Source of the DNA: Pythium myriotylum
Lineage: Eukaryota; Oomycota; Peronosporomycetes; Pythiales; Pythiaceae
Assembly (NCBI GenBank): GCA_023091665.1
Contig: JALJCQ010000004.1
Span: 744,001-808,000 of the forward strand
Length of the DNA stretch: 64,000 nt
Direction of reading: 5' to 3'
This document shows positions 34,772 to 53,100 of the stretch, in pieces. The notes under the pieces were generated by a model. The model ran no database searches. It worked only from the letters and a program-made list of their open reading frames with translations, and was not told the DNA's origin. Each line of letters starts with the position of its first letter. Positions within the stretch are counted from its first letter, which is position 1. Both the position numbers and the translations under genes were made by a program.

Positions 34772-37700
34772 ATGACGACAACGAACCGTGAGCAACTCGC
34801 AAAACAGCTCCTCCAAACGTTTGACGGAAGGTCGCGCCATTCAATAAAGCCGATCAGTGGAAAACTGCCTCATGGGAGTTCTGGAGTTGCCCGAACCGTT
34901 CAGCGGCGAAAGTATCCGCATCGACTTCCATCGCCAACTGAAGAGCAACTAGAACGACGCGAACAAGGTTGGAACGATCGATTCGCTTGTGATACTCCGC
35001 AACAACCAAAGCGACCGCAGCGGAATCGCTCAATCAACGACAGCGTGGATGCGCAAGATGCAAAGGAGCGGAAGATCCGAGATGAGAGACATCACTACGG
35101 TCATCCTGGGGCGCCGAAGCAGCGTCAGCGCCGCGGTCTAGGTCGACTCGTCCCAATCGCCCCACTGGGAGCACCTGCTCAGGTAGTTCAGCGCTGTCCT
35201 CGATTTGTCATGAGCCATCGCTATATTGCTGGAAACATGTCTATGATAGGAGTCCGACACAATGTCGTCCAAAGAAGAGAGGCTGCGGTTCAACGTGCTG
35301 AAGGCGATTGACGCCCGCGAGACTCTTATCTACCAATTGAACGCGCTCATATTGTGTACTCCCGTCCAGGAGGCGATAGTCATGGCAGCGGCAAGAGCTT
35401 CCGGTGGAGGGCTGGTTCCACAGAAGCCCCGATCAGACGTTGGAGGCATCAATACCATGACCAATCCACGCGAAGCCATGCGAATTGCGCACCAGCTGGG
35501 CACAGACCTCCAGCTCGCAGGGATTCAAGTTGTCGAAAGCATCGTCGAGTGGATGCTTGAGGCAGGCGCAAAGGCAGAGTATGTATCAAAGTCGTCTCAT
35601 GCTGGCTCGTGCTGACTTGATCGTTCTGCATAGTCGGCCACCAGAGTTTTTATGGCGCGGTCATAACTATTTCTTGAAGATGGAAAAGGATCTCGATTTT
35701 GCCGGTCCAGAGCTTCTTGCCCGGGGGGTTGAGCTCGACTGTTTCTCATTAACCAACCCGCTTTGTATTCGGCCAGGCCAACGACTTGGTCGTGTGCTGG
35801 CAGCTCAAACAATTATAGGAGAAATGGCCGACATGAGTCGTCGAGAGAGGGGACAAGAAAGTGAACGCGGAACTCGGAAAGGGAGTGGCGACTCGTTGAG
35901 TAGATCACCTGAAGAAACGAGACCAACAAACAGGTCGACTAACCAAACGCCTGTTAGTGGGGGTCGATGTGCCGTAGACATGGTCAGTGGAGAACCCATC
36001 AAGATACTTCAGACTCTGACTGGCGCAGATGAGCTGATCGCTTCGCTCGACGAAAGAAGTGATTACGAAGAAGAAGATCCTGATTTCGTAAGCGCAAGAT
36101 CATCTAATCTGGCGAACTCGGAAGCTGTCAGCAGTTTGTCAAACGCTTTGCAGGATCATGAGTCCGCAAAAGATCTGATCAGCATCCTCGACGAAAGCTT
36201 TTCTGAAAAGATTCTTCCTCAAGAGCTCGACGCGATCGAGCCACAGCCGGCTGAGAACTCTGGGGAAAGTACCGCACGGAATGAATATGAAAACAGCTTT
36301 GATGACGAGCCACAAACCGAGGACCAAGACCCGGTAACCTTAACAGACTTGACTTCCGAAGAACCCAAAGTTGGTTTGGCATCTGAGCCGGAAAAAGCCC
36401 TCTATCCTGGGGACGATAATTTGGAGGACGATATCGGAGGAGAATGTTCCGATGCTGTTGGTTCTGACGATACCTTCTTGGTCACTGAAACGACATCTGC
36501 TCTCGAGACAAGGATAAATCCTGGTGACGTTCATATTGATTGGGATGAAGTAGCAAAGGCTCTTGCAACTAGTTGCGGGGCCCTTAATGCTCTCGCAGGA
36601 TCTACGCTACGACAGTGTGCCCTATGGAGAAAAGAGAAGTGTCAGGACTTTGAAGACGTCGTGAACGGTGGATCTTGGTCCAGCTTCCAAGATACTCTCA
36701 GCGGCTCCTTTCTCAGCTCGCTTGACCCAGCTTTAGTGAACTGCCCATCTATTGATCAGACTGTTGAGAACATATCCCGCACTGAGGAAGTACACCAAGC
36801 CGGATTGCTGATGCTGCTGCTGGAAGAGTGTGAGGTTGTGGTCGACATCGTGTGCGCAGCTCTTGCACGCACCATCGAACTTGATCTGAAGCGTATCAGT
36901 CCATTGGTGTCGGAGGTGGAGTTGGTGGACATCGTTGAAATAACAGAGACACTTCTTCGTCGAGATGAAATTCGAAATGCTCTGCGATGGGTCACTCGCG
37001 CAATGGATATCTTGCGGCAGCTAGCAGTGACTCAGAAACTCCACAACAAGCGAGTATCCCAGGGACTAAGCCAGCTCCTTCAAGTATTTTATCCTTATAT
37101 CATCAACCAACGAAAAGATAAGCAACTCTCTGCTTGGCGTGCTGCCAGCCGTGCCTTTGTCGAGGCCGCAAACATCCACTTCGAGCGACTTGCGTTCTTG
37201 ATGAATGGAACATGCAAGGTCTTTTTGTTGAATGTACTCAGCCTTGCACGTAACTCCGAGGATAACGAAGACGTCGAATCCTTGGAGATCCCGAAGCTTA
37301 CGATTGTTTGTGATCGTGTAAATGTATTGGTCAGTTCAGTCGCTGCTGTTTCGGCGAAGTGCTTCAAGACCACTCCTGCTTCGTTGCTCCACTCGCGTTT
37401 CCAGTTGTATCCGTTCTTTCGGTGTTCGTTCGGCGAGAAGCTTGTGGATGGCGTGACTGTCGAAGAAGGAGAAGGCAAAGGGCCGTTGAAGGAGTGGTTT
37501 ACATTAGTTGCTCAAGATCTCGTAGCTAAATGGCGCGCTGTCGATCTCCCAGTCGACTTATCGTCTGACGAATATGATCCTGTTCTCGCTAATGGTAACA
37601 AGCTCGTGGTTGATCGGTGGAGTAGTCACCTGAAGGCCGGATACAAGGTGGAGTGGCGATCTCCAGTAGATAACACGACTATTTCTCGAATTATCAACCT

Positions 37701-39063
37701 GTGCGACCCACAAAACGGCACTTACATGTTGGATCGAGGAGGTCTCTCCAATCATGCCTTCTCGGTGTCCGAGCTACGTGTATTCCAACCTAGGTTTGCA
37801 TATCTTGAGTACGTCCAGTCGTCTGAAACGTATTGGCTCAACGAGTCGTTGGAGGACACCACAGAAAATCGAGAGGTTCTCGAATTCTGCGGCTGGCTCT
37901 TCGCTAACGCCTTGGTGCACCAATGTGGTCTACAGCTGCCAATTCATCGGCTTCTCTTCGAACTGATTCTCCACGAAGACCGCACGGTCACCCTCGAAGA
38001 TCTTAAGTCTCTGGACTCTCTCGTTTCTAACGCGCTCCAGCAGCTGACGCATATGAAGCCCTCGGAGTTCGTGGGCTACTTGGAGTTTGAAGGGCTCCCT
38101 TCGCATTGGTCGGTTAACGAGTACATCAAGCATTCACTCGACACCAAGTACGGTCCTGAGTCCAGCGTTGGCTGGCAGCTTCCCATGTTGCGAAGAGGTT
38201 TCTACCGTGTCTTCACTGCGCATGACATTCTAAGCACATGCTTATCTGCGGAGGATCTCGCTGAACTCGTGAGCGGTGAGTCATCCTCAAACTCTGATTT
38301 CAGATTCGACCAAGTGTTCCGCGTCTCTCTCGATCCCGACTTTGCCTCTTGCTCTCCGTTGAGACGATGCTTCTGGGAAGCTGTCGATGGTTTCGACCCC
38401 GTTCTCAAACGCTACTTCGTCAAGTTTGTCACCGGTGTCGATACGCTCCCGCAAGCTGGCACAGAGGTACGCATACGCAATGCTTGATGACTGGGGGTTG
38501 TCGCTCACTCGCTTGGCTGGTGTCATAGTTTCTTCGCATCGAGATGCCATTCCCTGCGACCTCACCGAGCGACTGCGAGAAGACGCTCTCGATGCTTCCT
38601 CAGTCCCATGTACGCATGACTGTCACCGGACACAAGTGCATGCGACACTAACAGGCGCCTTGCTGTGGAACAACAGACGTGCGACAACACGCTTGAACTG
38701 CCTCACTATTGGCGAGCGCTGTGCTGGAAGCACAAGCACGACGCCGACCAGCCGAGCGAGCCTCTCGAGCGGGAGCTGGTCGTGCTCTTGCAGCGCAAGC
38801 TTCAACAAGTGGCCGAGTACTCGTCGGGATACGGTCTCGACGGAACGAAGCCGCTCGGCGGCTCTCTGGCGGGGCTTTTTCCGGGAAGTCACGGCGCGGC
38901 TGCCGCACTGGACGTGCAAGACAGTTACGAGTCGCTGGACCTGCCCGCTCTGGACGGCGACGGCGAGGACGCTGCCAGAGAGAGCGTCGCGGGCGACGCG
39001 ACAGCCACGCGACCGCGCGAGGAGGAAGAGTACGGCGGCGACGACTGGGAGGAGGAGGCGTGA
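34772..39063 (+). CDS. HECT-domain E3 ubiquitin ligase
   Basis: Exons 34772-35182, 35250-35578, 35634-38466, 38529-38609 and 38677-39063; 1346 residues. The N-terminal half is largely unstructured and acidic, with no WW, RCC1 or ankyrin repeat that I can see. The HECT domain occupies roughly 840-1270, with EEGEGKGPLKEWFTLVAQDL, GLPSHWSVNEYIKHSL and LKRYFVKFVTGVDTLP. The catalytic cysteine is Cys1220 in SHTCDNTLELPHYW, split from SH by an intron. After Cys1220 there are 126 residues, against about 35 in most HECT proteins: a short insertion, the usual GYGLD-like end, then an extra 75-residue acidic tail. Known role: HECT ligases take ubiquitin from E2 onto this cysteine and pass it to a substrate. 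The substrate here is unknown. Confidence 0.9.
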
Positions 39064-39370
39064 CAACGTCCGTTATGAGTCACTGCATTCATTCGTGTGT
39101 CGCTTGCGGGATGATATCGTAAACAGATCGCCGCCAAAACCAGGTGAGCTGCTCACTAGTTAACCATATCAAGGTAGTATCCTTGATTCGTCTCGCGGAC
39201 ATATACTACTTCCACATACCTTGTTTTGGAAATATAGAAGCGAGATTCCCGTAGTGGGTTTATTTTGGCGGCCCACGGTGGGCCAATGACAGCCGTCGGC
39301 GTCATCACCCGTCAGCTCACTGCACCCGCCATTCCCCATTCCCGAGAAGCGACGGACGGCGACGAGCGAC
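39064..39370 (+). other. Spacer before HMG-CoA reductase gene
   Basis: About 307 bases between the HECT stop and the reductase ATG, in the same orientation. I see no conserved frame or clear initiator match. It should hold the reductase promoter. Confidence 0.4.
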
Positions 39371-42331
39371 ATGCCGGCGCCCGCGAGCGACTTCCACGCG
39401 GCGCTCGACGACCTGCTGCTCGCCGCGCGCGCGCTGCTCAAGCGCGCGGCCCACGCGCCGACCGCGGACACCGCCGCCGACGCCGCCGCGCAGCGCAAGC
39501 TCGACGAACTGCTCGCGACGGCCCACGAGCTGCGCGCCACGGTGCACGCTGCGCGGTCCGCCAGCGCCACGCCGCGCGCGTGCAAAGAGCCCGTCGCGAC
39601 CGCCAAGCGGTTCGACCCGCTGCAGCCCACGCCGCCGTTCGCGGCCGAGGACGCCTGGACCGGCGCGGCCACCAGCAGCTCGGGCGCGTCGCAGCCGTCG
39701 GTCTGGTCCGGGTTCTACAACAAGACGCTGCGCGAGCGCTTCGACGTGCTCGCGCTCATGTACCCGCGTCTGCAGCGCATCCGACAGGACACGGACACTA
39801 TGGTCGAGGACAAGCCCCTCCTCGACGCCACGGCCAAGCTCGGCGAGCTGCCCGTGCGCACGGCCAACCTCATGATCGAAAACTGCATCGGCGTGCTCGG
39901 CATCCCGCTCGGGCTCGGACTCAACTTCGTCGTCGACGGCAAGCACGTCTCGGTGCCGATGGCGGTGGAGGAGCCGTCGGTCGTCGCCGCCGCGTCCAGC
40001 GCAGCCAAGCTCGTCGCTGCGTTTGGCGGCGGCTTCTCGACGGCTACGACGGGCAACGTCATGACCTCGCAGGTGCAACTAGTGGATACCCCCGACATCG
40101 CGCAAGCTGTGGCGGCGATCGCTGCCCACCGCGAGCGGCTGCTGCACATCGCGAACACGACGCTCTGCCCCAACATGAAGAAGCGCGGCGGCGGCGCCAT
40201 CGACATCTACTGCCGGGTCGTCACGCAGCGCTCTCGCTCGCGCCAGACACAAACGCGAACTGAGGACACTGAGTTCTGGTACACTCCATGCGACGACGAG
40301 CTCACGATCCAGGCGTCAGACGCCGATGTCGAGTACCTCGTTGTCCACATTGACGTGGACGTGTGCGAAGCCATGGGCGCCAACATTGTCAACACAGTTG
40401 CCGAAGGACTCTCGACCGAGATCTGCCACCTCACCAAGAGCCGCTGCGGCCTGCGTATCCTAACGAACCTGTGCATGCAGCGTCGCGCGCGCTCGACGTT
40501 CGAGATCCCCGTGAAGAAGCTCGGCTGGAAGGGCGTGGACGGCGATCAGGTCGCTGCGCGCATCGTCGAGGCGTACAACTTTGCGGCCATCGATCCGTAC
40601 CGTGCCGTGACGAACAACAAGGGCATCATGAACGGCATCGACGCGGTGGCGCTCGCGACAGGACAAGACTGGCGCGCCATCGAGTCAGCAGCGCACTGCT
40701 ACGCGAGTCGCTCGGGACAGTACACGACTCTCTCCAAGTACGAGATCGTCGACCGCAGTGACGGCGTGCGTGTGCTGCGTGGCAGCCTGGAGATGCCACT
40801 CTCGGTGGGCTCGAAAGGTGGCGCACTGCAGACCCACCCAGGCTACCGCGCCACGCACTCGATCCTGGGCCAGCCGGATGCGCGAAGCCTCAGCAGCATC
40901 ATCCTCAGTGTCGGGCTCGCGCAGAACTTCGCCGCCATCCGCGCAATCGCCATCACGGGCATCCAGAAGGGCCACATGGCTCTCCACGCGCGCAACATCG
41001 CGGTCGCGGCCGGCGCGCCCAGCGAGCTCGTCTCGGAGGTGTGCACGTACATGCTCGGGCGCAAGTCCATCAACGTGGAGACAGCCAAGGAATACCTCCA
41101 CGCGCACGAAGTCTTCTCGGAGATCCACAGCAACTCGCCACCGTTGTCGCCTCAGCAGCAGCAGGTGCAGTCCGAGCCTCTGCCATCGATGTTCTACGTG
41201 GAGATCCGCGTGCCCCACTTGGAGAGCACTATCAGCCTCAACATTGCCTTTGAATCGATCAACAAGCACCCGCAGTACATCGCGATCCAGCCGACCAGTC
41301 CGACTGCTGCGAACGGCGACGCCGTCGACCTGCCGCTCATCCAAAGGCAACTCCTGGGCGACAAGGGCTACAACCAGCTCGAGAAGATGTTCTTGTTCCT
41401 GTCGTCGATGCGGTCGATCGTGATCGCGGACATTGAGGACCAGCAGCAGACGGAGACGGCGCTCCCGATAGTGTCGCGCGCGAACTTGGCACTGCAGAAC
41501 AAGCTGCAGCTGCTCTCTGTGCTCATCAATATCCTCGTGTTCCGGCTCATGGAGATCCGCTCGCAGGCTGCCGGCGCCTTCTTCCGAGAAGTGCTGTCGA
41601 GTGGCTCGTCCCTGACCGACCTCGACGGCTCGAGATGTCGCGCGCTGCTGGTTGACGTGCCAGCGAGCGACGACGTGCTCTCCACGGGCCTGCCGCTCTT
41701 CCTCGCGCTCTGCCAGGTGCTGCAGTACCACCTCGAGCAGGACGTGGCCCACGCGCTCATCCGGGAGCACATGGCCAAGGAAGAGTGGGCGCTGCTTCGC
41801 GCGGTCGTGCGCAGCTTCGAGCTGGTCTCGGAGCAGCCTGTGACGATCGAGAGCCAGTCAAGCGACGAGGAGAAGCTCGAGGCGTTCATGGCCATCCACG
41901 CCAAGCGCTGGCAGGCCAACATGCTGCTGCTGATCGACCTGCTGGCACTCGCGTCGGAGCTCGTGACGCCGGCGCGACTCGAGTCGCTGCGTTGCATCGG
42001 CGAGTACATGGAGTGGGAAGGCACGGTCGCCCACGACATTGCCCGCCACGCGCGCGCCATCACCGAGCGCGAGCCCAACGCCTTCGTCTACTGGCTGCGG
42101 CTCAAGGGCGTCAACATCCACGCCGAACCCGTCAGCGAAGAGCTCGTGGACGAGTTCCGGCGAGTCGCGCACGTGTACGCGCAGCACAAGTGGCGAAGCG
42201 TCGAAGAATCGCACGCCGCCGCCGAAGAGCCCGTCGTGTTCTCGCTCGCGGCGGTCAAGCGCGTCGTGCAGCTCGTGGGGCACGTGTACGGCGAGCGAAG
42301 TGGCTCGCAGCCTCGGAAAGACTCGTTCTGA
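39371..42331 (+). CDS. Class II (bacterial-type) HMG-CoA reductase with long C-terminal extension
   Basis: Single exon, 986 residues. The reductase core spans about 110-585 and follows the class II (Pseudomonas/archaeal-like) enzyme closely: MIENCIG (Glu170), VEEPSVVAAAS, EAMGANIVNTVAEG (cofactor loop), NNKGIMNGID (Lys417), ATGQDWRAIESAAH (Asp433) and QKGHMALHARN (His535). All four catalytic residues are present. Class I (animal, plant, fungal) versions would read TEGCLVAS where this has VEEPSVVAAAS. The enzyme reduces HMG-CoA to mevalonate (or runs in reverse in mevalonate-eating bacteria). There is no membrane anchor, so it should be cytosolic. About 160 extra N-terminal residues and about 400 C-terminal, mostly helical residues of no family I know flank the core. 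The absence of introns and the class point to a bacterial origin. Confidence 0.93.
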   Translation: MPAPASDFHAALDDLLLAARALLKRAAHAPTADTAADAAAQRKLDELLATAHELRATVHAARSASATPRACKEPVATAKRFDPLQPTPPFAAEDAWTGAATSSSGASQPSVWSGFYNKTLRERFDVLALMYPRLQRIRQDTDTMVEDKPLLDATAKLGELPVRTANLMIENCIGVLGIPLGLGLNFVVDGKHVSVPMAVEEPSVVAAASSAAKLVAAFGGGFSTATTGNVMTSQVQLVDTPDIAQAVAAIAAHRERLLHIANTTLCPNMKKRGGGAIDIYCRVVTQRSRSRQTQTRTEDTEFWYTPCDDELTIQASDADVEYLVVHIDVDVCEAMGANIVNTVAEGLSTEICHLTKSRCGLRILTNLCMQRRARSTFEIPVKKLGWKGVDGDQVAARIVEAYNFAAIDPYRAVTNNKGIMNGIDAVALATGQDWRAIESAAHCYASRSGQYTTLSKYEIVDRSDGVRVLRGSLEMPLSVGSKGGALQTHPGYRATHSILGQPDARSLSSIILSVGLAQNFAAIRAIAITGIQKGHMALHARNIAVAAGAPSELVSEVCTYMLGRKSINVETAKEYLHAHEVFSEIHSNSPPLSPQQQQVQSEPLPSMFYVEIRVPHLESTISLNIAFESINKHPQYIAIQPTSPTAANGDAVDLPLIQRQLLGDKGYNQLEKMFLFLSSMRSIVIADIEDQQQTETALPIVSRANLALQNKLQLLSVLINILVFRLMEIRSQAAGAFFREVLSSGSSLTDLDGSRCRALLVDVPASDDVLSTGLPLFLALCQVLQYHLEQDVAHALIREHMAKEEWALLRAVVRSFELVSEQPVTIESQSSDEEKLEAFMAIHAKRWQANMLLLIDLLALASELVTPARLESLRCIGEYMEWEGTVAHDIARHARAITEREPNAFVYWLRLKGVNIHAEPVSEELVDEFRRVAHVYAQHKWRSVEESHAAAEEPVVFSLAAVKRVVQLVGHVYGERSGSQPRKDSF

Positions 42332-42377
42332 AGAGGGAGTAGTAGAATAGAAGCAAAACTGACACAATGGAATTTCG

Positions 42378-43009
42378 CTAACGAGGCGTCTCGTCGTCCT
42401 CGTCGTGCTCGTCCTCGTCGTCGTCGTCTCGCTGCTGCAGCACCACGAACGCGAGCGCGTAGTCGCCGTCGTGGGAGATGGAAACGAGCGGCTCCTAGCG
42501 CCGCCACCAGTCAGTCGTCAGTCGGCGGCATCTCGCAGACAGAGAGAGCGAAAGAGTCTCTGGGTACGCACATGCAGTCGCAGCTGGGCCGCGAGCGCCG
42601 CGGTCTCGCCGTGGAACTCGAGCTCGAGCGCCTTGGCCTCTTTCGCCACGGGCAGCGCCGTCTGGATCTGCCGCGCGAGGTCGCTCGAGCGCTGCCGAAC
42701 GGCGCAGATCTCCGGGAAGAGCACGCGGTAGCGCTGGAAGGCCTTGAACGTCGCCTCCTTGACCGCCCACCTGCTCACAATCCCCCCGCAACTCGTGAGC
42801 TCCTCACGAGCGCAAAATGCATCTGGCCGGCCGACCGACCTGGAGGCGAGGAAGAGCGGCCGCTGGGCCTCGGGGCGGGCGCGGAACTCGGCGATCTCGC
42901 GCGCGTGGAAGGCCTTGGCCAGGAAGCGCTCGCCGAAGCGCGCGTAGCTGCGCTGCACGCGCGAGACGCGCGCGACGTCGACGCCGACGCCCACGATCCG
43001 CAGGCGCAT
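42378..43009 (-). CDS. acpS: Holo-[acyl-carrier-protein] synthase (AcpS)
   Basis: Complement of 42840-43009, 42572-42770 and 42378-42494; introns 69 and 77 bp; 161 residues. AcpS landmarks: GVGVDVARVSR (Asp11, metal ligand), FGERFLAKAFHAREIAEF, RWAVKEATFKAF (Glu62, metal ligand) and LVSISHDGDYALAFVVL. The enzyme moves the 4'-phosphopantetheine arm of CoA onto acyl carrier proteins, needed for mitochondrial or plastid-type fatty acid synthesis. Two introns show it is a settled nuclear gene. No clear targeting peptide precedes the core. An unusual acidic tail of about 18 residues (DDDDEDEHDEDDE) follows the fold. It ends 46 bases from the HMG-CoA reductase stop, tail to tail. Confidence 0.92.
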
Positions 43010-43124
43010 GGACGATTTCGGCCAATGGACGTCTCTGGGTGCAAATCAGTGCGCCCCTCTTCCATCTGACTCGGCTCCTCAGCTGAGCTGCGCTCGCTCG
43101 GCTCCCTCGGCGAACCGGCGCGGG

Positions 43125-43769
43125 ATGCCACTCCGTCTTTTCTCCGCGGCGGCGATGACGCGGCTCCACGCCGACGCGTTCCTCGACCACGTGGCCGCGC
43201 GCGCGACGTCGCGCCACGCGCCGCTCGACGCCAAGCGCCCAGCGCCCAAGCAGAACCCGATCCAGCGCGTCGCACACGCGGCCGAGCCGGCGACCGTCGC
43301 GAGCGCGAAGGCCGACGGGCGCGTCACGGTCCAGGTCGTGATCGACAAGGTCGGCCACGGCGTCGCGCCCGAGCAGCCCCTGCTGGCGCCCGAGCCGGCG
43401 CCCACGAGCCAGGCGCTGGCGTTCGCATTGCTCGAGCAGAAAGAGGCGGCTGTGCAGAGCGAGCTCCTGGCCCAGTGGCAGCGCCGCGACTCGATCGAGC
43501 TCGCGCTCGTGGGCGCCGCCGTGCTGGTCGTGGCGCTCGTGGTGATGGCCATCGCGCGGCGGCAACAGCGCGCGTACGAGCGCTCGCGGCAGCAAGCGAC
43601 GACGACGACGACGACGACGACGACGGACGAGAGCGAGTCGGCGGCTCAGGCGACCAGCGGCGACTTGGAGAGCGGCGGAGCGACCGGCGAGTTCCCCGAC
43701 GGACTCGCGACGCCGCCGAGCGAGGACGAGCTCTCGACGCCGTCCAGCGTAGAAGAAGGCATCGTGTGA
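43125..43769 (+). CDS. Single-pass membrane protein, unknown function
   Basis: 214 residues from the ATG at 43125; an ATG at 43008 is in frame but overlaps the AcpS start codon, so the downstream one is preferred. A basic N-terminus (MPLRLFSAAAMTRLH) could be a mitochondrial targeting peptide. There is one strong membrane helix around 128-148 (LALVGAAVLVVALVVMAIA) followed by RRQQRAYERSR and an acidic Ser/Thr-rich tail. A run of nine threonines is coded by an (ACG)n repeat near 43597-43623. No family recognised. It lies head to head with AcpS. Confidence 0.55.
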   Translation: MPLRLFSAAAMTRLHADAFLDHVAARATSRHAPLDAKRPAPKQNPIQRVAHAAEPATVASAKADGRVTVQVVIDKVGHGVAPEQPLLAPEPAPTSQALAFALLEQKEAAVQSELLAQWQRRDSIELALVGAAVLVVALVVMAIARRQQRAYERSRQQATTTTTTTTTDESESAAQATSGDLESGGATGEFPDGLATPPSEDELSTPSSVEEGIV

Positions 43770-43776
43770 TCGCGAG

Positions 43777-45555
43777 ATGCGCGTGCATGTTACTACTAGT
43801 GTTCACGTCGAAAATAGAATCTTTGCTTTCAGTGCAACGGCGGCAGCACTTCTCGTGGGCATGGCCACGTCGCCCAACAAGCTCATCCACGAGCTGGTCG
43901 AGCAGAGTCGCGATCGCGTCGCCCATGTCCGCGCCGGACAGAGTCTCTTTGAGGTTCTAGACGCGCAACTCGGACCGCCTCCGGCTGTGGTTCGCGACCT
44001 CAAGACCCTGCCACGCCTCGGCCACAACGCTAGCAGAGTCGATGGACTGCGTGCGACGATACGCAGCCGTGCGGCCGTCGTGCTGCCGCCAGCGAATCGG
44101 CCGTCGGCTCCGTTACCCTCATCCTTCGAGCAGTACGCGTTCTATGCCGGCAGCAAACTCGCTCAGAGCGAGAGCGTCAACATGCTGGACCGTCGCAAAG
44201 CCGTCGCCGCCGACGTCTCGCAGCTCAGGAAGCTCGCAGCAGTCGTGTCTGACCAGACACTTGCGTCTGGAGCGATGGCCGCCAAGCTCAAGCGAGCAGT
44301 AGGCGTGATGAAGTCCAAGGACGCGTTCCTCGCCCTCAAGCACCGCGCCCCGCGGTCGCTCGAGTTCAAGAACGCCCACATGGCGTTTCTCGAGTTCAAG
44401 GCCACCGGAGAAGCCACGACACCAGGCAACATGGCGCGCATCAACGCCTCGACGCACGAGCCTATCCGCTACGGCGACGCCGTCTGTCTCCTCTCCTTGA
44501 TCTCCGACCTCCCGCTCGCCGTCGGTCGCAACGGCCGCTCCATGGCCGTGACCGACGCCGTCTCGGGGCCTCACATGGTGTTCACAGTCGTCGACTTCTG
44601 CAATCCGTCGCGACAGGACGATCTTCTCGTCGGTGACGATTTCTGGCTACGTGTGGACGCGTCATATCTCGATGTCGGCGACGAAGACGAGATCCTCTCG
44701 CTACTCATGGACACACACTACTACCTCGGTGGCCCCGGAGCGATCGAAGACGAGCCCGTCGAGAAACTCCATGCACGAGGAGCCAAGTATGCCCCGGACG
44801 ACAGCAAGACGCCAGATCGAGCCTTCAAACTCGTGGCCATGAAAGCAAGCGTGCCCTCGTCCGAGTATTATGGAGACGACCGAGCAACACGCGAGTTCGC
44901 CATGGAGACCAACGCGAGCGTGCTGCGGCTCGCGAAATGGAGGTTCGCTCCCGCACGAAGGCGGTCGATGCGCGACGCTGGTGACAGTGAAGGAGACGCG
45001 ACCAACGAGGGGCAGCTCGTGCTCAACTGCGCTTCAGTAAGACTCGTGCAGGGGGATTTTGAACTCGAGTATGACACTGAACGATGTCGCGCAGTCTTGC
45101 GAGGGGCTATTGGTCGCTCGGTTGACGGAGCGAAGGCCCACGCGACGGCTGGAACCCAGAAACGCGAAGCCGGCACGTGGCAAGTGCGGCTGATGCATCG
45201 CCAGGCGTTGACTCGAGACCAGGATGCGCTGAAAGAACTCCCGTCTCTTTCACCTCCTAAGAAACAAAACCGCTCAGAGCATGAGGAAGCGCTCGAGTGG
45301 CTTCAGTTCCATCGAGACAAGGTGGAACGTGAAGCCAAGCGCACCAACAGCAAACGCGCGCTCGCCAGGGACGCCCACTGTGCCTACGACAAAGTGGCGG
45401 CTCTTAGCAACGCCAAGCTACTGCAGGTCGAGCGAGCCAAGGCTCAGAACCACCGTGAGTACTTCCAGAATTGCTTCCAAACAGCGTTCGGAAACGCTCC
45501 AAGCCAGGCGCATCACGGGGTCAGAACAGAGAACGTCACGCTGCCTCGGCTGTGA
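43777..45555 (+). CDS. Uncharacterised 592-aa protein, possible beta-trefoil core
   Basis: Single exon. Met1 or Met29 (at 43861, MATSPNKLIHELVEQSRDRV) could be the start; the second gives a more usual N-terminus, since the first runs through a short hydrophobic stretch. An Ala/Lys-rich helical part (about 130-190) is followed by a beta-rich middle: IRYGDAVCLLSLISDLPLA, HMVFTVVDFCNPSRQDDLLV, GDDFWLRVDASYLDVG. This YGD-based pattern recalls MIR/beta-trefoil repeats of ryanodine-receptor type, but the match is weak. The C-terminus is coiled coil (EEALEWLQFHRDKVEREAKR). No catalytic motif. Function unknown; its stop lies only 34 bases from the NSUN5 stop. Confidence 0.65.
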   Translation: MRVHVTTSVHVENRIFAFSATAAALLVGMATSPNKLIHELVEQSRDRVAHVRAGQSLFEVLDAQLGPPPAVVRDLKTLPRLGHNASRVDGLRATIRSRAAVVLPPANRPSAPLPSSFEQYAFYAGSKLAQSESVNMLDRRKAVAADVSQLRKLAAVVSDQTLASGAMAAKLKRAVGVMKSKDAFLALKHRAPRSLEFKNAHMAFLEFKATGEATTPGNMARINASTHEPIRYGDAVCLLSLISDLPLAVGRNGRSMAVTDAVSGPHMVFTVVDFCNPSRQDDLLVGDDFWLRVDASYLDVGDEDEILSLLMDTHYYLGGPGAIEDEPVEKLHARGAKYAPDDSKTPDRAFKLVAMKASVPSSEYYGDDRATREFAMETNASVLRLAKWRFAPARRRSMRDAGDSEGDATNEGQLVLNCASVRLVQGDFELEYDTERCRAVLRGAIGRSVDGAKAHATAGTQKREAGTWQVRLMHRQALTRDQDALKELPSLSPPKKQNRSEHEEALEWLQFHRDKVEREAKRTNSKRALARDAHCAYDKVAALSNAKLLQVERAKAQNHREYFQNCFQTAFGNAPSQAHHGVRTENVTLPRL

Positions 45556-45589
45556 AGGAATCGGATGGGTCTATATTGTTTCGAGTCTA

Positions 45590-47200
45590 TCATGATGTCG
45601 AGGTTGCCTCTTGGGTCTGGAGCCGCTGCTGCTTCTTACGCTTCAGCTTCTCCTTCTTGCGACGTTTCCGCGCATCCTTCTGAGACTCCGAGACCTGCTT
45701 GCGCTTCGAGCCGACGGCTGGCTGGTCTTCCTCCTCGTGTTCGTCGTCCTCCTCGTTGTCTTCTTCAACGATCGCAGCACTTTCAGCTTTCTCGGTCGCA
45801 GGGTTGTCGTTGGGTGATGAGATGGACGTAAGCGTCCCCTTCGCACTGGCGTCTCGCTCGAAGTACGCGACGAAGAATCCATTCGTGTTGTCTTCGTGGC
45901 CATCAGCGCGCACCAACGCATCTGCTTGCGCTTTGGTGAGTCCAGCTACTTCCAGACCTCGACGTGGCCACGTCGGCAGGCACTTGCGCAGCACAAAGGG
46001 CTTAGGGTCTTGAACGTTCTGCGCTGAGCGCAGCGCAGCGGCGACGACTTCCTCGTTCTCTTTTTGGAAGATCGAACATGTCGAGTACGAAACGCGCTGT
46101 ACTTGCGGGAACGAAAACGCTTTGAGTAGGGCCTCGAGCTGGAAATCAGCGAGCGACTGGAGCCGCGAGGCGACGTCGCCGTCCACATCCACGTCATTCT
46201 CTTGGGCGTTCTTATCACTGGCAATGTCCAGCAAATGGTCCAACCGGTTGGTCATGCCAGAGCCTGAGCACGAAGGATCCAACAGAATGGACCGGACGTT
46301 TGCATACGTCGGGGCATTGACATCGACTTCGAGAAAGCTCTGGAGACAGGGCTCCACGAGTGCGTCGGCTCCAGCGAGTTTCATGCGACGCTTCAGCAGC
46401 TCGAGTCGCTTGGCCGATCGATCGAACGCGAACACTTTGCGTCCACTCAGAGACGAGTTCTTGGCTTGCTGTTGGTGGAGAAGCATCGCTGCGTGGCTTG
46501 TCTTGTTGCCAGGGGCGGCACAGGCATCGATGACGTCGCCCTCCAGACCGGCGGGGTCGCCTCGCTCGCCGTGCAGCACGAACGCCGGGAAGCAACTGGC
46601 TTTGTCTTGCAGAATGAGCTTGCCGTCTTTGACGAGCTCATGTTCGTGGAGCTCCGTGCCTGCCGGCAACACGACCAAGTCACCGACGTGCGCGTCCTGC
46701 TGCACCGCGTCGCCGAACTCGCGCTTGAAGGCCGCGAGCTCTTCGCTCGAGATCTTGAGCGTGTTGACGCGCACGTATCGCGGCAGCAAGAGCTCGCTCT
46801 TGCGGTTCTCCTTGGGCAGCAGCGCCTCGTTCGAGGCTACTTTATGCTTGATCTTGAGCCGCACGAGCGCCGTCTTGAACGCGTTCGCGTGGAGCATGAG
46901 CTCCTTCTTGACATGGCCGCCGCCCTGGATCTTCTGGTGGCGTCCGAAGAGCAGGTCGTAGAGCGAGATCAGCAGCAGCGCGCGCGGGGCGCCGGCCTTG
47001 AGCTTCTTGGCGAGCTTGCACTGGGGCACGGCGTCGAGCAGCTGCAGCAGCAGCGGCTTGAAGCGCAGCGTCTCGCAGACCAGCGCGAAGGAGCTGCGCT
47101 TGTGCTGCACGTTGTCAGCGTACGCGAGGCTCTTGAGCCCGCCCTCGCGCCGCTCCAGCTTCTGCAGCAGCTTGGCCGCCTCCTTGTACAGCTCGCTCAT
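45590..47200 (-). CDS. NSUN5: NSUN5/Rcm1-type 25S/28S rRNA m5C methyltransferase
   Basis: Single exon, 536 residues from MSELYKEA. Family landmarks: ALVCETLRFKPLLLQLL, LPRYVRVNTLK, the cofactor motif DACAAPGNKTSHAAMLL, VRSILLDPSCSGSGM (the PC-motif region, with Ser-Cys), and YSTCSIFQKENEEVV (the TC motif with the nucleophilic Cys). LHEHELVKDGKLILQDKASC matches the NSUN5 [20 protein letters not shown] block. NSUN5/Rcm1 puts one m5C on large-subunit rRNA near the peptidyl-transferase region. The C-terminus beyond the core is an acidic then Lys/Arg-rich tail, suited to nucleolar targeting. An upstream in-frame ATG at 47236 is possible, but the family aligns from 47200. Confidence 0.95.
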   Translation of the reverse strand: MSELYKEAAKLLQKLERREGGLKSLAYADNVQHKRSSFALVCETLRFKPLLLQLLDAVPQCKLAKKLKAGAPRALLLISLYDLLFGRHQKIQGGGHVKKELMLHANAFKTALVRLKIKHKVASNEALLPKENRKSELLLPRYVRVNTLKISSEELAAFKREFGDAVQQDAHVGDLVVLPAGTELHEHELVKDGKLILQDKASCFPAFVLHGERGDPAGLEGDVIDACAAPGNKTSHAAMLLHQQQAKNSSLSGRKVFAFDRSAKRLELLKRRMKLAGADALVEPCLQSFLEVDVNAPTYANVRSILLDPSCSGSGMTNRLDHLLDIASDKNAQENDVDVDGDVASRLQSLADFQLEALLKAFSFPQVQRVSYSTCSIFQKENEEVVAAALRSAQNVQDPKPFVLRKCLPTWPRRGLEVAGLTKAQADALVRADGHEDNTNGFFVAYFERDASAKGTLTSISSPNDNPATEKAESAAIVEEDNEEDDEHEEEDQPAVGSKRKQVSESQKDARKRRKKEKLKRKKQQRLQTQEATSTS

Positions 47201-47424
47201 TCTCCCAATGGACTCGCCGAGTAGCCACCGGATCATAGTGACATTGAGTGGCACTCACTGGAGGTATTGTAAAAATAGTGTGGACCACGTTATTCGATGA
47301 TTCAATGTCACTCGCTGCTGACTCTGTCCTTGGCGCGAGGGACCCTCTGAAAGCCAGACAGCGGACCGACAACACGGCGGGTCACCATGGCAGATCCATT
47401 CTCCGACTAACCGCCTCGCGCACG

Positions 47425-49180
47425 ATGCGGTTCTTCTCCGCGCTGGTGCTGCTGCTGCTCGCGCCGTCCGCCTCAAGCGCCTCGGACGCGAGCGGCGCCG
47501 GCACCGTGACGGCCAACGCCAACGCCACGACGAGCGCCTCGGCCGCGGCCGCCGACGGCGTCATCATCGTGCGCGGCAACAAGATGTACAACAGCAAGAC
47601 CGGCGCGCGCTTCTTCATCAAGGGCGTACGTTCCTCGCACAGAAGGCTGCTCTCTGTGGATGAACAGGTACTAACGGACCTGTTGACTGTAGATGACTTA
47701 CGAGTACGCCGTGGATGACGAGCACTACGCCAAGTACTCCAAGGACGTGATCGCCAAGCACCTCGCCGACGTGGACATGAACACGCTCCGTCTCTACGAC
47801 ATCAACCCGGACCTGTCGTACGCCAAGTTCATGGGTGACATGGCTGCGCGCGGCGTGTACGTCATCGTCGGCGGCACGCCCGACAACAGCGACTACTGGG
47901 GCAAGTACCGCTATGCGACGCTCAAGAAAGGCACGGGGCCGGCTGAAGGAGAGACCTGCTACTCGCCTGTGCTGCTCGAGTACGGCAAGAAGATCGCCAA
48001 GAATTTTGCCCAGTTCGACAACACGCTCGCCATCCTCATTGGCAACGAAGTCATGCAGAAGGATCTCACGGCCGGCGCCTGCGTCAAGCAGTACACGGCG
48101 GACCTCAAGACCTGGATGCGCGTCAACGCCAAGAAGATGCGCACGATCCCGATCGCGTACGCGGCTGCTGATAGCGCGTACGGAACGAAGATCCCGAGCG
48201 CCGAAGAGTACCACACGCTCAAGATCCAGGGCTTGCTCTGCGGTGACAAGATGCAAGACGGTGTGATGACGCGCAGCATTGACATCTACCTCATCAACGA
48301 GTACCGCTGGTGCCCAGGACGGGAGTTCGCAGTGTGGTCGCAGTTCCTTAACATGGCACAGGGACTGCCGATCGTGATCGGCTTTGGAGAGTACGGCTGC
48401 AAGATCGATACCCCACGCGACTGGGCCATGGTTCCCTACCTCTACGATGAACCGGCCAAAACGTCCGAGTTCTCGGCCACTTTTTCGGGTGGTCTAGCCT
48501 ACTCGTTCGGCGAGGCCAAGCTTCCGGCCGGCTCGTTGTTCCCCATGTTTTCGGGTGGCTCCATGAACCCTCTGGGCGAGCCCAGCAACGTGCCTTCGGT
48601 TGACTTCACGAACCTGAAGAAGCAGTTTGCTGACCATAAGCCATACTCCGACCCGGCTGCGTGGAAGAGCGACGCCAAGTGCTCGTGGGCGCCGGATCTC
48701 GCGACCAAGGTAAGCGAGACGAACAAGCGTGCGAGCGCCAGCGGGTGGATCGTCGCGGACTGCGAGGCGGACGTTCTCAAGGTCGTCCCGACGGACACGT
48801 GGGTCACCAAGTCGCGTCAGGGCGCGGATTGCGAGAGCGGCTCGGATTGCGATGTCCCCATGCCGACCTCTGTGGGCACGACGCAGGAGGACATCTGTGG
48901 AAAGGCCGCGACCAACGCAACGACCTCCACTGGTGGTGCGTGCACATCGTCTTCCGACTGTCTCAACGGCGGCGAGTGTGTCGAAGTGGACAAGGCCAAG
49001 CAGTGCAAGTGCGCGGCATGCTACACGGGCACCAACTGTGGATTCAAGGACGACGCGTCGTGCCCATCCAGTTCAGGCTCGACGACCCCTGCGCCTACTA
49101 CGTCGGCAGCCGTGGCGACGGTTGCGTCGACGATCGGAGTCGCTGTGAGCACCGCCGTCGTTGCGGTGCTCATGATGTAG
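47425..49180 (+). CDS. GPI-anchored GH72 beta-1,3-glucanosyltransferase with EGF-like module
   Basis: Exons 47425-47625 and 47693-49180; 562 residues. Signal peptide about 1-18, then a Thr/Ala-rich stretch. The GH72 domain (about 45-350) has FFIKGMTYEY, NTLRLYDINP, LIGNEV (acid/base Glu186) and GFGEYGC (nucleophile Glu300), with LAYSFGE after it. Then come a cysteine-containing linker, an EGF-like module (CTSSSDCLNGGECVEV...CKCAACYTGTNC), a Ser/Thr-rich stalk and a hydrophobic C-terminal tail after a small-residue site: a GPI signal. Fungal Gas/Gel/Phr enzymes cut and rejoin beta-1,3-glucan chains at the wall. The same role is expected here, since oomycete walls contain beta-1,3-glucan. The EGF module replaces the cysteine-rich X8/CBM43 domain found in yeast Gas1. 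Confidence 0.93.
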
Positions 49181-49255
49181 AGACAAACGTGATAGAGGGT
49201 GGAAGTAACAAAGAGGACACACCAAGACAGCTTGCACGATAGAGCAGTCGATTGG

Positions 49256-49994
49256 TTACACAATGATATGACATTGTCCGGTTTGACTAAGCGCCGCGAC
49301 CTCGTCGGGTAGCACGTATCCGTTGGCCCCGAGACTGAACTGGTTCCCTTGTAGCTCCCTAGAACAGAACCGCATATGAGTTGGCCCGCTGGTAGATTTG
49401 CAGCCCAGGTTGTGTAGTCAGTGGCTCACAAGTACTCGAGAAACGCGAGGCTTCCGATTGATGGCGGCACCACGCCGTCAAGCCAGTTGCGGTCGAGTCG
49501 CAAGACTCGAAGCGACGTCAAGAGCGACACGGTGGGCGGCACCGACCCGGTGAGGAAGTTGGAGCTCAGATCTCTGCATTAACATGTCAGTGTAAAACTC
49601 AAAAGTGGCATCGAGCCATCGCTCGCACAGCTCCTGGAGAAACCGCAGCGACGCGCGCGGGAACTCGACGGGCAGGTACCCGACGAGGTTGTTGTTCGGC
49701 AGGCGGATCGTGACGACGTGGAAGGCGTCGTCGCACGTGACGCCGTACCACTGGGTCCAAGCGCATGTGTTAGATCTCGTGGCCCCCGCCCTCGTCTCTC
49801 TTACTCACGCTGTCGAGACACGGGTCGCTCATCTCGTTCTGCACGTCCCAGCCGTTGCGCCACTGGCGGCCGTCCGTGGCCCAGAAGAGCAGCTGCAGCG
49901 CGCCGCGCTCGCCGCGACTCGTGGCGCTGAAGGCGTCGCGCGCGAGCGCCAGAGGGCTCACGAGCGCCAGGCTCATCCCCAGCAGCTTCAACAT
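49256..49994 (-). CDS. Small secreted leucine-rich-repeat protein
   Basis: Complement of 49809-49994, 49629-49750, 49430-49573 and 49256-49358; introns 55-71 bp; 184 residues. Signal peptide about 1-18 (LGMSLALVSPLALA). The N-terminal cap is of plant LRR type: WRNGWDVQNEMSDPCLDSV then WYGVTCDD. About three LRRs follow (IRLPNNNLVGYLPVEF, LDLSSNFLTGSVPPTV, LRLDRNWLDGVVPPSI), then ELQGNQF and a short tail with one Cys. No transmembrane helix or kinase. The mix resembles plant DRT100/PGIP-like secreted LRRs. The ligand is unknown; it could act in the wall or outside the cell. It starts 115 bases from the HIRA start, head to head. Confidence 0.87.
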
Positions 49995-50109
49995 CGCGGA
50001 ACTCCATACTGCCACGGCGGGTAGTCGCGGCTGCCTCTAGAACTTGATACCACCACCTCCCTCCAAACCCCCATCACATCTCCAGCGCGGGGAGCTGCTC
50101 ACGAGATAG

Positions 50110-53100
50110 ATGCTCGTGGAGAAGCCCGAGGACGTGCGCCACGAGAACGCGGCGGGCAACGGTGAGCGCTCGCGCGTGTCGTCTCTGAGTCTGACTCGCG
50201 CTGATCTGAGTGGCGACGGCAGCCTCCGCGATCTACGGCGTCGACGCGCATCCCAGCAAGCCGCTCTTCGCCACGGCCGGCGGCGGTGAGATTGCGCCGC
50301 GTCAACAGCTCCACGGCGCCGGCTCACCGCTCTTTGTGTTCCGGCAGATGGATCCGTCAAGATCTGGTCGCTCGAGAGCTCTGCGGACGGCGGACTCGCG
50401 ACGTTCGAGCTGCTGGCGACCTTGGCGTTCCACGAGCAGGCCGTCAACTGCGTGCGCTGGGCTGGCCACGGGCGATACCTCGCTTCGGGCTCGGACGACC
50501 AGCTCGTGCTGCTCTACGAGCTACAGCCTGGCGCGCCGCCACCCGTCGCGTTTGGATCGAATGCCAAGCCCAACAAACAGAACTGGGTCCGTTGCTCCAC
50601 GCTCAAGCGCCATTCGATGGGTGAGACCGCTAGTTGCGTCTGCGAGGCGACATGTCTAGCTGATCGATTATTCATTACGTATTCGTTGGTGCAGATGTCG
50701 AAGACGTGGCCTGGTCACCGGATGACCGTCTCCTCGCCACGTGCTCGATCGATAACTCGATCTGCATCTGGGACGTGGACCCGACGGGCATCTCGCCTGT
50801 CATGAATCAGCCGCTCCAGACACTCACCGGCCACAATGGTTGGGTGAAAGGGATTGCATGGGATCCTGTCGGGAAGGTACGTTGATGGAAAACGAGAAAT
50901 CGCGCAGTACCTGACGTTGGAGCGTCCAATAGTATCTCACCAGTGCTGGCGAAGACAAGACGGTGCGCGTCTGGCGTGTTGACAATTGGCAGCAAGCGCA
51001 CGTCATTTCCGAGCCATTCGAGGCATGTGCATCCACATCAAACTTCCGGCGGCTCTCATGGTCACCGGATGGTTCGGTGCTGTGTGGCACCCATGGATTC
51101 AAGTCGAAGAAACACATTGCGGCACTGCTCGACCGAACATCTTGGTCGAATGACGTTGACTTCGTCGGCCACCAAGGGGTTGTCACCTGCGCTCGTTTCA
51201 ATCCAAAGCTCTTCGGTGAGTGGGGGTATGCTTCCTTCGCCTTGATTAGTGCTAACGACGAATGGGATAGTCAAGGACCCGACGTCCGAGAAGGAGTATG
51301 CTTGCTGTGCTGTGGGCGGAGATGACGCTACGGTCAGCATCTGGCTAGCGCACATGGCGCGTCCACTCACTGTCGTGAAGGAGTGTTTCGAAGCGTCTGT
51401 CACTGATCTGTCGTGGCTGGTTGACGAAGGTCGATCGACTCTGATTGCAAGCTCACTCGATGGAAGTATTTGTTGCTTTCAGATGGATACGGGGGAGATT
51501 GGGCTTCCGGTGTCAGACTTGCGGCAAAGCAAACTTCTCCAAACAAAGGTGCGTGATGAATTTGCACGACACTACGTGCATCTTTTAACTCGATGTTTGG
51601 GTCGATAAAACAGTATGGATCGAGAGCGGGAATAACATTAGCCTCGACTTTTATCGAAAACCCTCTTCAACTGCAGCTCGAAGCGACATCATCTGCGCAA
51701 CAGTCAGCCACGTCAGCAACTACCACAAACCTCGTTCCCAAGAAAAAAAATTCGACAACGACGGTTCCTATTACCGCAACAGCAGGAAAAGTGAACATTC
51801 TTCAAGCTGTATCGAAGAAAGGAGACAAGAAGCGAATCTCACCTGTGTTACTCCAGCAAGAGAGCAGTGAAGCGCATGCTACAGAGACAACACCGCAACC
51901 AAGTGCACCCAATCCTGCCTCCGTCGCTAACAAGATCCAGAATATCCTGGGTCCAACCGTACCGGAGAATCTCGGCGATACCAGTCTTCTTGACGAGCGC
52001 ATGACAGGAAAGTCGAGTCATCGTACAGCAGAGCCAAATGGTAGCGCTCCGAAGGTGTCAACTCCTCAACCAGCGTTGACCGCGTCGATACAATCAAAAG
52101 CCGATGCGAAGCGCCAGCGCGAGAATTCACACAAGAGAAAGCGTGATGGCGAGCGTGGGACAGCAGGAGGGGCGACTACAGCCGCAGGTGCCGCTGTGAT
52201 GGCGAAAGCAAAAGAAGTGACACCACGACCTCCGAAGGTGCTAACACAGAGGTGAGAATCGTGTTTGTGACGGGGCCCTCTAGCTGTAATTAACGATGTT
52301 ATGCGCACACAGTGTCGATGGTGCATCGAATGGATCAGCTACAACGCCTGTGCTACCCACGTTTCCCATGCGAGTTTCATTTTCTGTTGAAATTGATGCA
52401 GTTGGTGTGGATATCCAAGCTTCTGCCACATCTCCACCGACTCCGAATGTTGTGGAAGTCACAGTACACAATGCCAAACCAGCAGGCGCTGTCGATGTGA
52501 CTGGTACGTATCACATTTCCTCCCAAGAGGGTTGACCTCGTTACTGATGTTTGCTGAAACAGCATCAGAAGCTGGCCCTGTGTTCTCAACAGTGAGATGT
52601 TCTCAAAACAACATCGTTAAGTGGGTCGATCGATTCCCTGGGCACGTCGTTTGTGTTTGTGGAAATGCGACTGTGTGCGTCGTGGTTACCGCCAACGGGG
52701 ATATGTTCATTTTGAGTGGGAGCGGCCGTCGTGTCTTCCCGTGCATTTGTACGTGTATCTGAGAGCCCTCTTCCTGTTCGAAAAATCCTGATGTGTTTGT
52801 TATGGTAGCTCTCGGTGGCGCAGCTTCAGTGGTGGAGTGTAGCCCGGGAAAAACTCCATACGTTATGGTTATCTTGGCCAGTGGTGCAATGAAGATCTGG
52901 GATGTGACTTCGCGTAAAGTTTTCATGCACGACTCAATTGAATCACTTGTCTCGGTAGGTCTCCCCGCCTACATTGGACTCAGTGAACTTGTGCGTGAAG
53001 CTCATTTACTCTTTTGAATTAAAAAGTCCACGTATGGAACGGCCCAGAAAGTGACTTTACTTCGAAGCACGGTCTCTCTCGCTGGTCTTCCAATGCTCAC

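Follow-up and report, generated by a model that had tools for sequence, protein, structure and literature searches.

What is the long C-terminal extension of an oomycete 3-hydroxy-3-methylglutaryl-coenzyme A (HMG-CoA) reductase (HMGR), and how did an enzyme of class II come to be encoded in this genome? In textbooks, HMGR is the step at which isoprenoid synthesis is controlled. The question is raised by a gene located at positions 39371-42331 (+) of a 64,000-nucleotide stretch of the Pythium myriotylum genome (contig JALJCQ010000004.1, positions 744,001 to 808,000; assembly GCA_023091665.1), referred to below as the window. The gene forms one open frame of 986 codons without an internal stop. 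The explanation that we consider best, with a probability of roughly 0.45, is that the extension is a dead domain of terpene-synthase fold, acting as a prenyl-diphosphate sensor on the apparently sole, class II, HMGR of this organism.

Class of the reductase and predicted fold of its extension

The catalytic region matches Pfam family HMG-CoA_red (PF00368; residues 156-540, E 3e-90) and the NCBIfam "degradative" model TIGR00532, which we take to represent class II HMGRs (296.9 bits, E 2.7e-88; cut-off 259.95). The protein does not fit the class I profiles, since the NADPH (class I) models TIGR00533 (33.8 vs 441.8 bits required) and TIGR00920 (23.7 vs 778.35 bits) remained far under their cut-offs. 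Comparison of the predicted model with solved structures gave class II enzymes as the top matches, with class I enzymes well lower; the model has the class II fold, beginning near residue 109. The protein is therefore a class II HMGR, as had been proposed when the DNA was first interpreted without database searches (the sequence-only reading). That reading assigned a lead of 160 residues to the protein; given where the class II fold begins, the lead is only about 105 residues long. Its occupancy in the family averages 9-30% per 20-residue block (residues 1-100; 68 more distant rows).

In an alignment of 119 family members, Lys417, Asp433 and His535 are each kept in all sequences, while Glu200 and Glu201 are each present in 117. 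The class II catalytic set (E201, K417, D433 and H535) is complete, in agreement with the four catalytic residues originally noticed; the roles were assigned by alignment to class II enzymes, with reference to the P. mevalonii numbering. In the cofactor helix, Met269 and Arg272 are invariant (119/119). According to a recent preprint, Arg at motif position 7 is shared by the NADPH-type class II motif and an "undefined" group, some members of which are promiscuous (PMC13370337). From the CPNMKKR sequence, with Arg at this position, NADPH or dual cofactor use is predicted; thus, the enzyme probably uses NADPH or both cofactors, and it appears to run in the biosynthetic direction, making mevalonate.

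The variable insert at residues 286-320 was considered as a possible intron and rejected, since the same stretch is translated in the other oomycetes compared. No intron is needed in this gene, and its earlier description as intronless holds.

A Foldseek search with the predicted model matched the C-terminal domain to class I terpene-synthase and prenyl-synthase structures, and an alpha-helical class I terpene-synthase fold is a well-supported prediction for this region. The proposed homology to terpene synthases rests on the predicted fold, because profile comparison and a hidden Markov model (HMM) search show no sequence similarity. The view of the extension as belonging to no known family thus survives in part: there is no convincing sequence-family match, but a known fold is predicted. 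A whole-family profile compared with solved structures found HMG-CoA reductases and one weak chance match, leaving the tail unmatched. Several weak hits were judged to be due to chance or set aside: a Pfam match to NA-iREase3 (E 0.003 and 0.00041, below cut-off, in 1 of 11 members), a match to the EXO70A1 profile (E 0.34), and four NCBIfam matches obtained with 11 C-terminal pieces (E 0.07-0.1, one member each, with unrelated names). The terpene-synthase family PF19086 had no match in the P. myriotylum genome, a result that is uninformative alone, as control genomes were equally silent; two of six other genomes gave a match.

Distribution and age of the fusion

A search with the window protein yielded 1539 matches. 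Among the 120 listed, the closest is a metagenome protein (76% identity). Proteins of Pythium, Phytophthora, Peronospora, Lagenidium, Saprolegnia, Aphanomyces and other oomycetes show 48-69% identity, and those of chytrid, blastoclad, neocallimastigomycete and monoblepharid fungi and others 33-47%; P0042 (56%) and P0045 (50%) fall between those groups. The C-terminal domain is conserved beyond oomycetes, in blocks such as PSxFYxE, LNIAF, KLKLLSxLLN, GFPLLLALWQVF, HxKRFQVTMFLLCD and EWExTxAHD. Its presence in many oomycetes and zoosporic fungi contradicts the idea of a novelty of this lineage. Contamination was ruled out by the same-length relatives in many named oomycetes and by the adjoining open reading frames (ORFs), which match HECT and NSUN5.

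When the C-terminal 406 residues were used alone, six proteins of 283-385 amino acids (aa) were obtained, three of them from named oomycete records; these were considered as stand-alone copies of the domain and interpreted instead as HMGR fragments of the reductase family. A single peptide pattern, and hence not an exhaustive search, gave 56 matches in genome contigs, none of which was confirmed as a prokaryotic relative of the domain. Three metagenome proteins belonging to the family (P0122, P0126 and P0128, two of them tail-only) are labelled HMG-CoA synthase at source, probably a mislabel passed on.

Phylogenetic analysis was performed with 113 catalytic domains hand-picked from 311 extracted (27 of 80 fetched bacterial loci plus 86 proteins); the trees are unrooted and five rows have an odd letter composition. 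Rows that we take to be Corallochytrium (Clim) and Sphaerothecum (Sdes) were named from accession prefixes. In the careful tree, all 37 domain-bearing rows fall in one clade of 64 rows (bootstrap/Shimodaira-Hasegawa-like approximate likelihood ratio test [SH-aLRT] 100/96), which includes none of the 27 bacterial-locus rows. The oomycetes (6 rows, 100/97) and the fungi (15 rows, 100/97) each form a clade of their own; so do the Amorphochlora group (8 rows, 100/100) and, with support of 100/99, the 17 rows made up of the fungi and two holozoan-type rows. The quick tree separates the same 64 rows plus five more, as a 69-row group, from the other 44 (SH-aLRT 100), and the latter hold all bacterial-locus rows.

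Since the domain-bearing rows fall in one clade apart from the bacterial-locus rows, the fusion is, on the evidence of these trees, old: it would be either early eukaryotic, with subsequent losses, or spread between eukaryotes. At least 10 changes in domain presence are required on the careful tree. An old transfer into eukaryotes is possible. That a bacterial gene was recently transferred into this lineage and then acquired a new extension, as the sequence-only reading had suggested, is highly improbable: the catalytic domain is indeed of class II, the usual bacterial kind, but numerous genera of oomycetes, as well as fungi, have the same architecture, and the gene is placed in a clade of eukaryotic and other class II sequences, with every domain-bearing row inside it and every bacterial-locus row outside. 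Such a placement is what the sequence-only reading had itself specified as refuting its proposal.

Protein P0068, filed under the locust Schistocerca gregaria, also falls in the eukaryotic clade and is probably a contaminant record. Six further proteins of 750-762 aa (P0184, P0188, P0189, P0201, P0226 and P0240) contain a class II HMGR joined to GHMP kinase domains (PF00288 and PF08544), possibly a reductase-kinase fusion; P0184, the only one of this kind in the tree, groups with the bacterial loci.

Metal motifs and possible function of the C-terminal domain

The strict NSE motif, (N/D)Dxx(S/T)xx(K/R)(D/E), was found in none of the 119 C-terminal regions of the family. A DDxx[DE] string occurs nowhere in that of the window protein and in only 16 of the 119 members, at scattered places. 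The equivalents of the DDxxD and NSE motifs were placed by eye from helix order and spacing (Table 1). In the putative DDxxD helix, Ser716 (114/119) and Asn720 (116/119) are conserved, and no family member carries an acidic residue at position 716, 717 or 720. The string that comes nearest to NSE is HDxxRxxR; in 83 of the 119 sequences the next residue is an acid. Its Asp889 is invariant, while His888, Arg895 and Arg892 are present in 113, 109 and 101 members, respectively; Arg846 (116/119), Glu881 (110/119) and Asp856 (109/119) are also well conserved.

The spacing of these residues was compared with that of seven bacterial synthase domains, six of which are halves of three similar proteins. 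In the synthases, Arg is located 46 residues before NSE and DD 143-153 before it; an RY pair follows NSE at a distance of 87 or 96 residues. In the reductase family (11 sequences queried, 7 of which fitted the search pattern), Arg precedes HD by 42 residues in six cases and by 44 in one. We infer from the motifs that the Mg2+ sites of the domain have decayed and that synthase activity has been lost. It is rather improbable that the domain has a catalytic activity of its own (prenyl transfer, cyclisation or hydrolysis of diphosphates) at a site with an unusual metal or none, which would make the protein bifunctional; its predicted fold and the strong conservation of Asp889, Glu881 and Asp856 would suit such a role, but the lack of a strict NSE, the rare and scattered DDxx[DE] strings and the missing acids in the putative DDxxD helix argue against it.

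Having lost the metal motifs but kept conserved basic residues close to where these motifs would probably lie, the fold readily suggests itself as a candidate prenyl-diphosphate receptor. According to the preferred explanation, of a dead synthase-fold domain serving as a sensor, an old fused class I terpene-synthase fold with decayed Mg2+ sites would still bind a prenyl diphosphate, geranylgeranyl diphosphate (GGPP) or farnesyl diphosphate (FPP), with Arg and His residues replacing the metal. Binding would alter the attached reductase, so that feedback would operate with no need of a sterol-sensing membrane domain. In yeast, GGPP has been reported as a feedback signal acting on Hmg2 (PMC7948459). 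More tentatively, such a metal-independent receptor on an old eukaryotic class II HMGR could provide soluble end-product feedback. This mode of HMGR control would be distinct from those through the sterol-sensing domain and UBIAD1, and it may be the only one that persists in oomycetes that have lost sterol synthesis and class I HMGR.

Several observations weigh against the proposed sensor. The Foldseek scores are modest, with none under E 0.001 (top TM 0.40/0.52, rmsd 10.8). The hhalign probability of a match to terpene synthases was 0.2% (local) and 0.0% (global), with a thin set of 7 sequences, and no Pfam or NCBIfam terpene-synthase family matches the domain. In a permissive HMM search of 1094 ORFs from all fetched loci (synthases and the window gene included) and 350 shuffles, true synthase domains ranked under many decoys and shuffles; only the window's own gene scored high, with one ORF of a synthase locus (L092) at E 13. 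The motif positions were set by eye and not by superposition coordinates, S716-type residues lie about 151-223 residues before HD (five sequences) as against 143-153 for DD in the synthases, and an R-Y-type pair is found 73-76 residues after HD in three of seven family sequences, the window protein not being one of them. Moreover, 26 of the 64 clade rows lack the C-terminal domain (some are perhaps truncated, and one further row has a weak match).

The absence of the domain from those rows, together with the by-eye motif equivalence and the putative ligand role, would also fit a purely structural domain that binds no ligand and serves to fix the oligomeric state or to attach the reductase to another enzyme or a membrane. 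This is somewhat less likely, as Asp889, Arg846, His888, Asn720 and Gln848 are kept in 112-119 of the 119 members, from oomycetes to fungi, a conservation that exceeds the needs of a spacer.

Genomic setting and comparison with known systems

The 58.7 Mb assembly was searched in six frames, exon by exon; the absences reported here are therefore provisional. PF00368 was detected in one place, and the same model detects archaeal control HMGRs, presumably of class I. A class I model gave the reductase gene and one other stretch (model positions 74-225), both below cut-off, so that the check for a class I gene in the same genome, proposed in the sequence-only reading, revealed none. HMG-CoA synthase, mevalonate diphosphate decarboxylase and polyprenyl synthases were matched above cut-offs; mevalonate-kinase-like frames are present, none above cut-off. 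No match was obtained for Dxr of the methylerythritol phosphate pathway or for squalene/oxidosqualene cyclase. With one HMGR locus, mevalonate-pathway genes present and Dxr not found, the gene is probably the sole mevalonate source of a sterol non-producer.

Plant HMGRs belong to class I. As HMGRs among Aphanomyces euteiches expressed sequence tags are nearest to those of cotton, and were reported among sequences without Phytophthora orthologues (PMC2248709), class I may have been lost together with sterol synthesis. P. sojae likewise has a single HMGR gene, and lovastatin at 80 µg/ml lowers its mycelial growth by only 31.9%, while sporangia decrease by 67.7% at 20 µg/ml and by 93.3% at 40 µg/ml (PMC9635365); weak statin action is thus not uniform. 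Since bacterial class II enzymes are weakly inhibited by statins (PMC13370337), inhibitors to which plant and animal class I enzymes do not respond are conceivable.

Directly upstream of the reductase gene is a frame for a HECT-domain ubiquitin ligase (35485-38487, +; E 2.4e-22), and a holo-ACP synthase-like gene (ACPS, E 1.4e-9; 42518-43009, -) lies tail-to-tail with it. In a Bremia lactucae record (P0052), an ACPS-like domain (52% identity) directly follows a reductase without a match to the C-terminal domain, representing either a gene-model join or a domain replacement. GC content is 0.59-0.68 over several genes at 38000-51000, compared to about 0.50-0.53 on either side (34-38 kb and 51-54 kb).

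Table 1. Features of the reductase gene (window coordinates).
Feature	Position	Strand	Basis or remark
Class II HMG-CoA reductase with C-terminal domain of predicted terpene-synthase fold	39371..42331	+	single open frame, 986 aa
N-terminal lead, residues 1-104	39371..39682	+	helices predicted at 4-28 and 34-64, then low-confidence linker
Catalytic region of class II HMG-CoA reductase, residues 105-580	39683..41110	+	Pfam/NCBIfam profiles, predicted model
Cofactor-helix motif C-P-N-M-K-K-R, residues 266-272	40166..40186	+	sequence, family alignment
Variable insert, residues 286-320	40226..40330	+	coding; also in oomycete proteins compared
Catalytic Lys417	40619..40621	+	119-member alignment
Catalytic Asp433	40667..40669	+	119-member alignment
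Catalytic His535	40973..40975	+	119-member alignment
C-terminal domain, residues 605-976 (of a ~390-residue extension starting at ~600)	41183..42298	+	class I terpene-synthase fold, predicted
S716-x-x-x-N720, putative DDxxD helix (inferred position)	41516..41530	+	helix order, spacing
R846-W-Q848, predicted helix break, 42 residues before H888	41906..41914	+	candidate pyrophosphate-sensor Arg (inferred)
H888-D889-x-x-R892-x-x-R895-A896, end of putative NSE helix (inferred)	42032..42058	+	alignment, spacing

In the open-licence literature, the scope of our survey, we found no description of an oomycete HMGR as class II or of its terpene-synthase-fold domain. P. myriotylum is a eukaryote apparently reliant on a class II HMGR alone, with a domain architecture not found in that literature, and the direct question opened is whether a degenerate terpene synthase senses FPP or GGPP.

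Class II HMGR has been known in demosponges, Capsaspora and some fungi since 2016 (PMC4784904), although a 2026 preprint describes it as exclusive to bacteria and archaea (PMC13370337). The named fungal rows of our tree share a clade with the window gene. The accessible portion of the 2016 account does not mention a C-terminal domain, a terpene-synthase fold or oomycetes, and proposes a transfer into the opisthokont ancestor; the oomycete copies imply a wider distribution, in a tree that holds no sponge or Capsaspora rows by name.

Bacterial class II HMGRs (P. mevalonii, Delftia, Burkholderia, S. pneumoniae) share the catalytic fold and residues with the window protein and resemble it in the N-terminal region from about residue 109. 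However, their solved chains (369-458 residues) have no C-terminal domain, and their cofactor motif is unlike C-P-N-M-K-K-R. Class I terpene synthases (7e4n Sat1646, 7e4o, plant alpha domains) and prenyl-diphosphate synthases show no detectable sequence similarity to the C-terminal domain, which, unlike terpene synthases, is fused to a reductase in a family devoid of strict NSE motifs. Class I HMGRs with a sterol-sensing domain (human, yeast) catalyze the same step, and in both cases the extra domain is proposed to be regulatory; if this is true of the C-terminal domain, the isoprenoid pathway could sense its own products via a fusion common to a water mould and some fungi.
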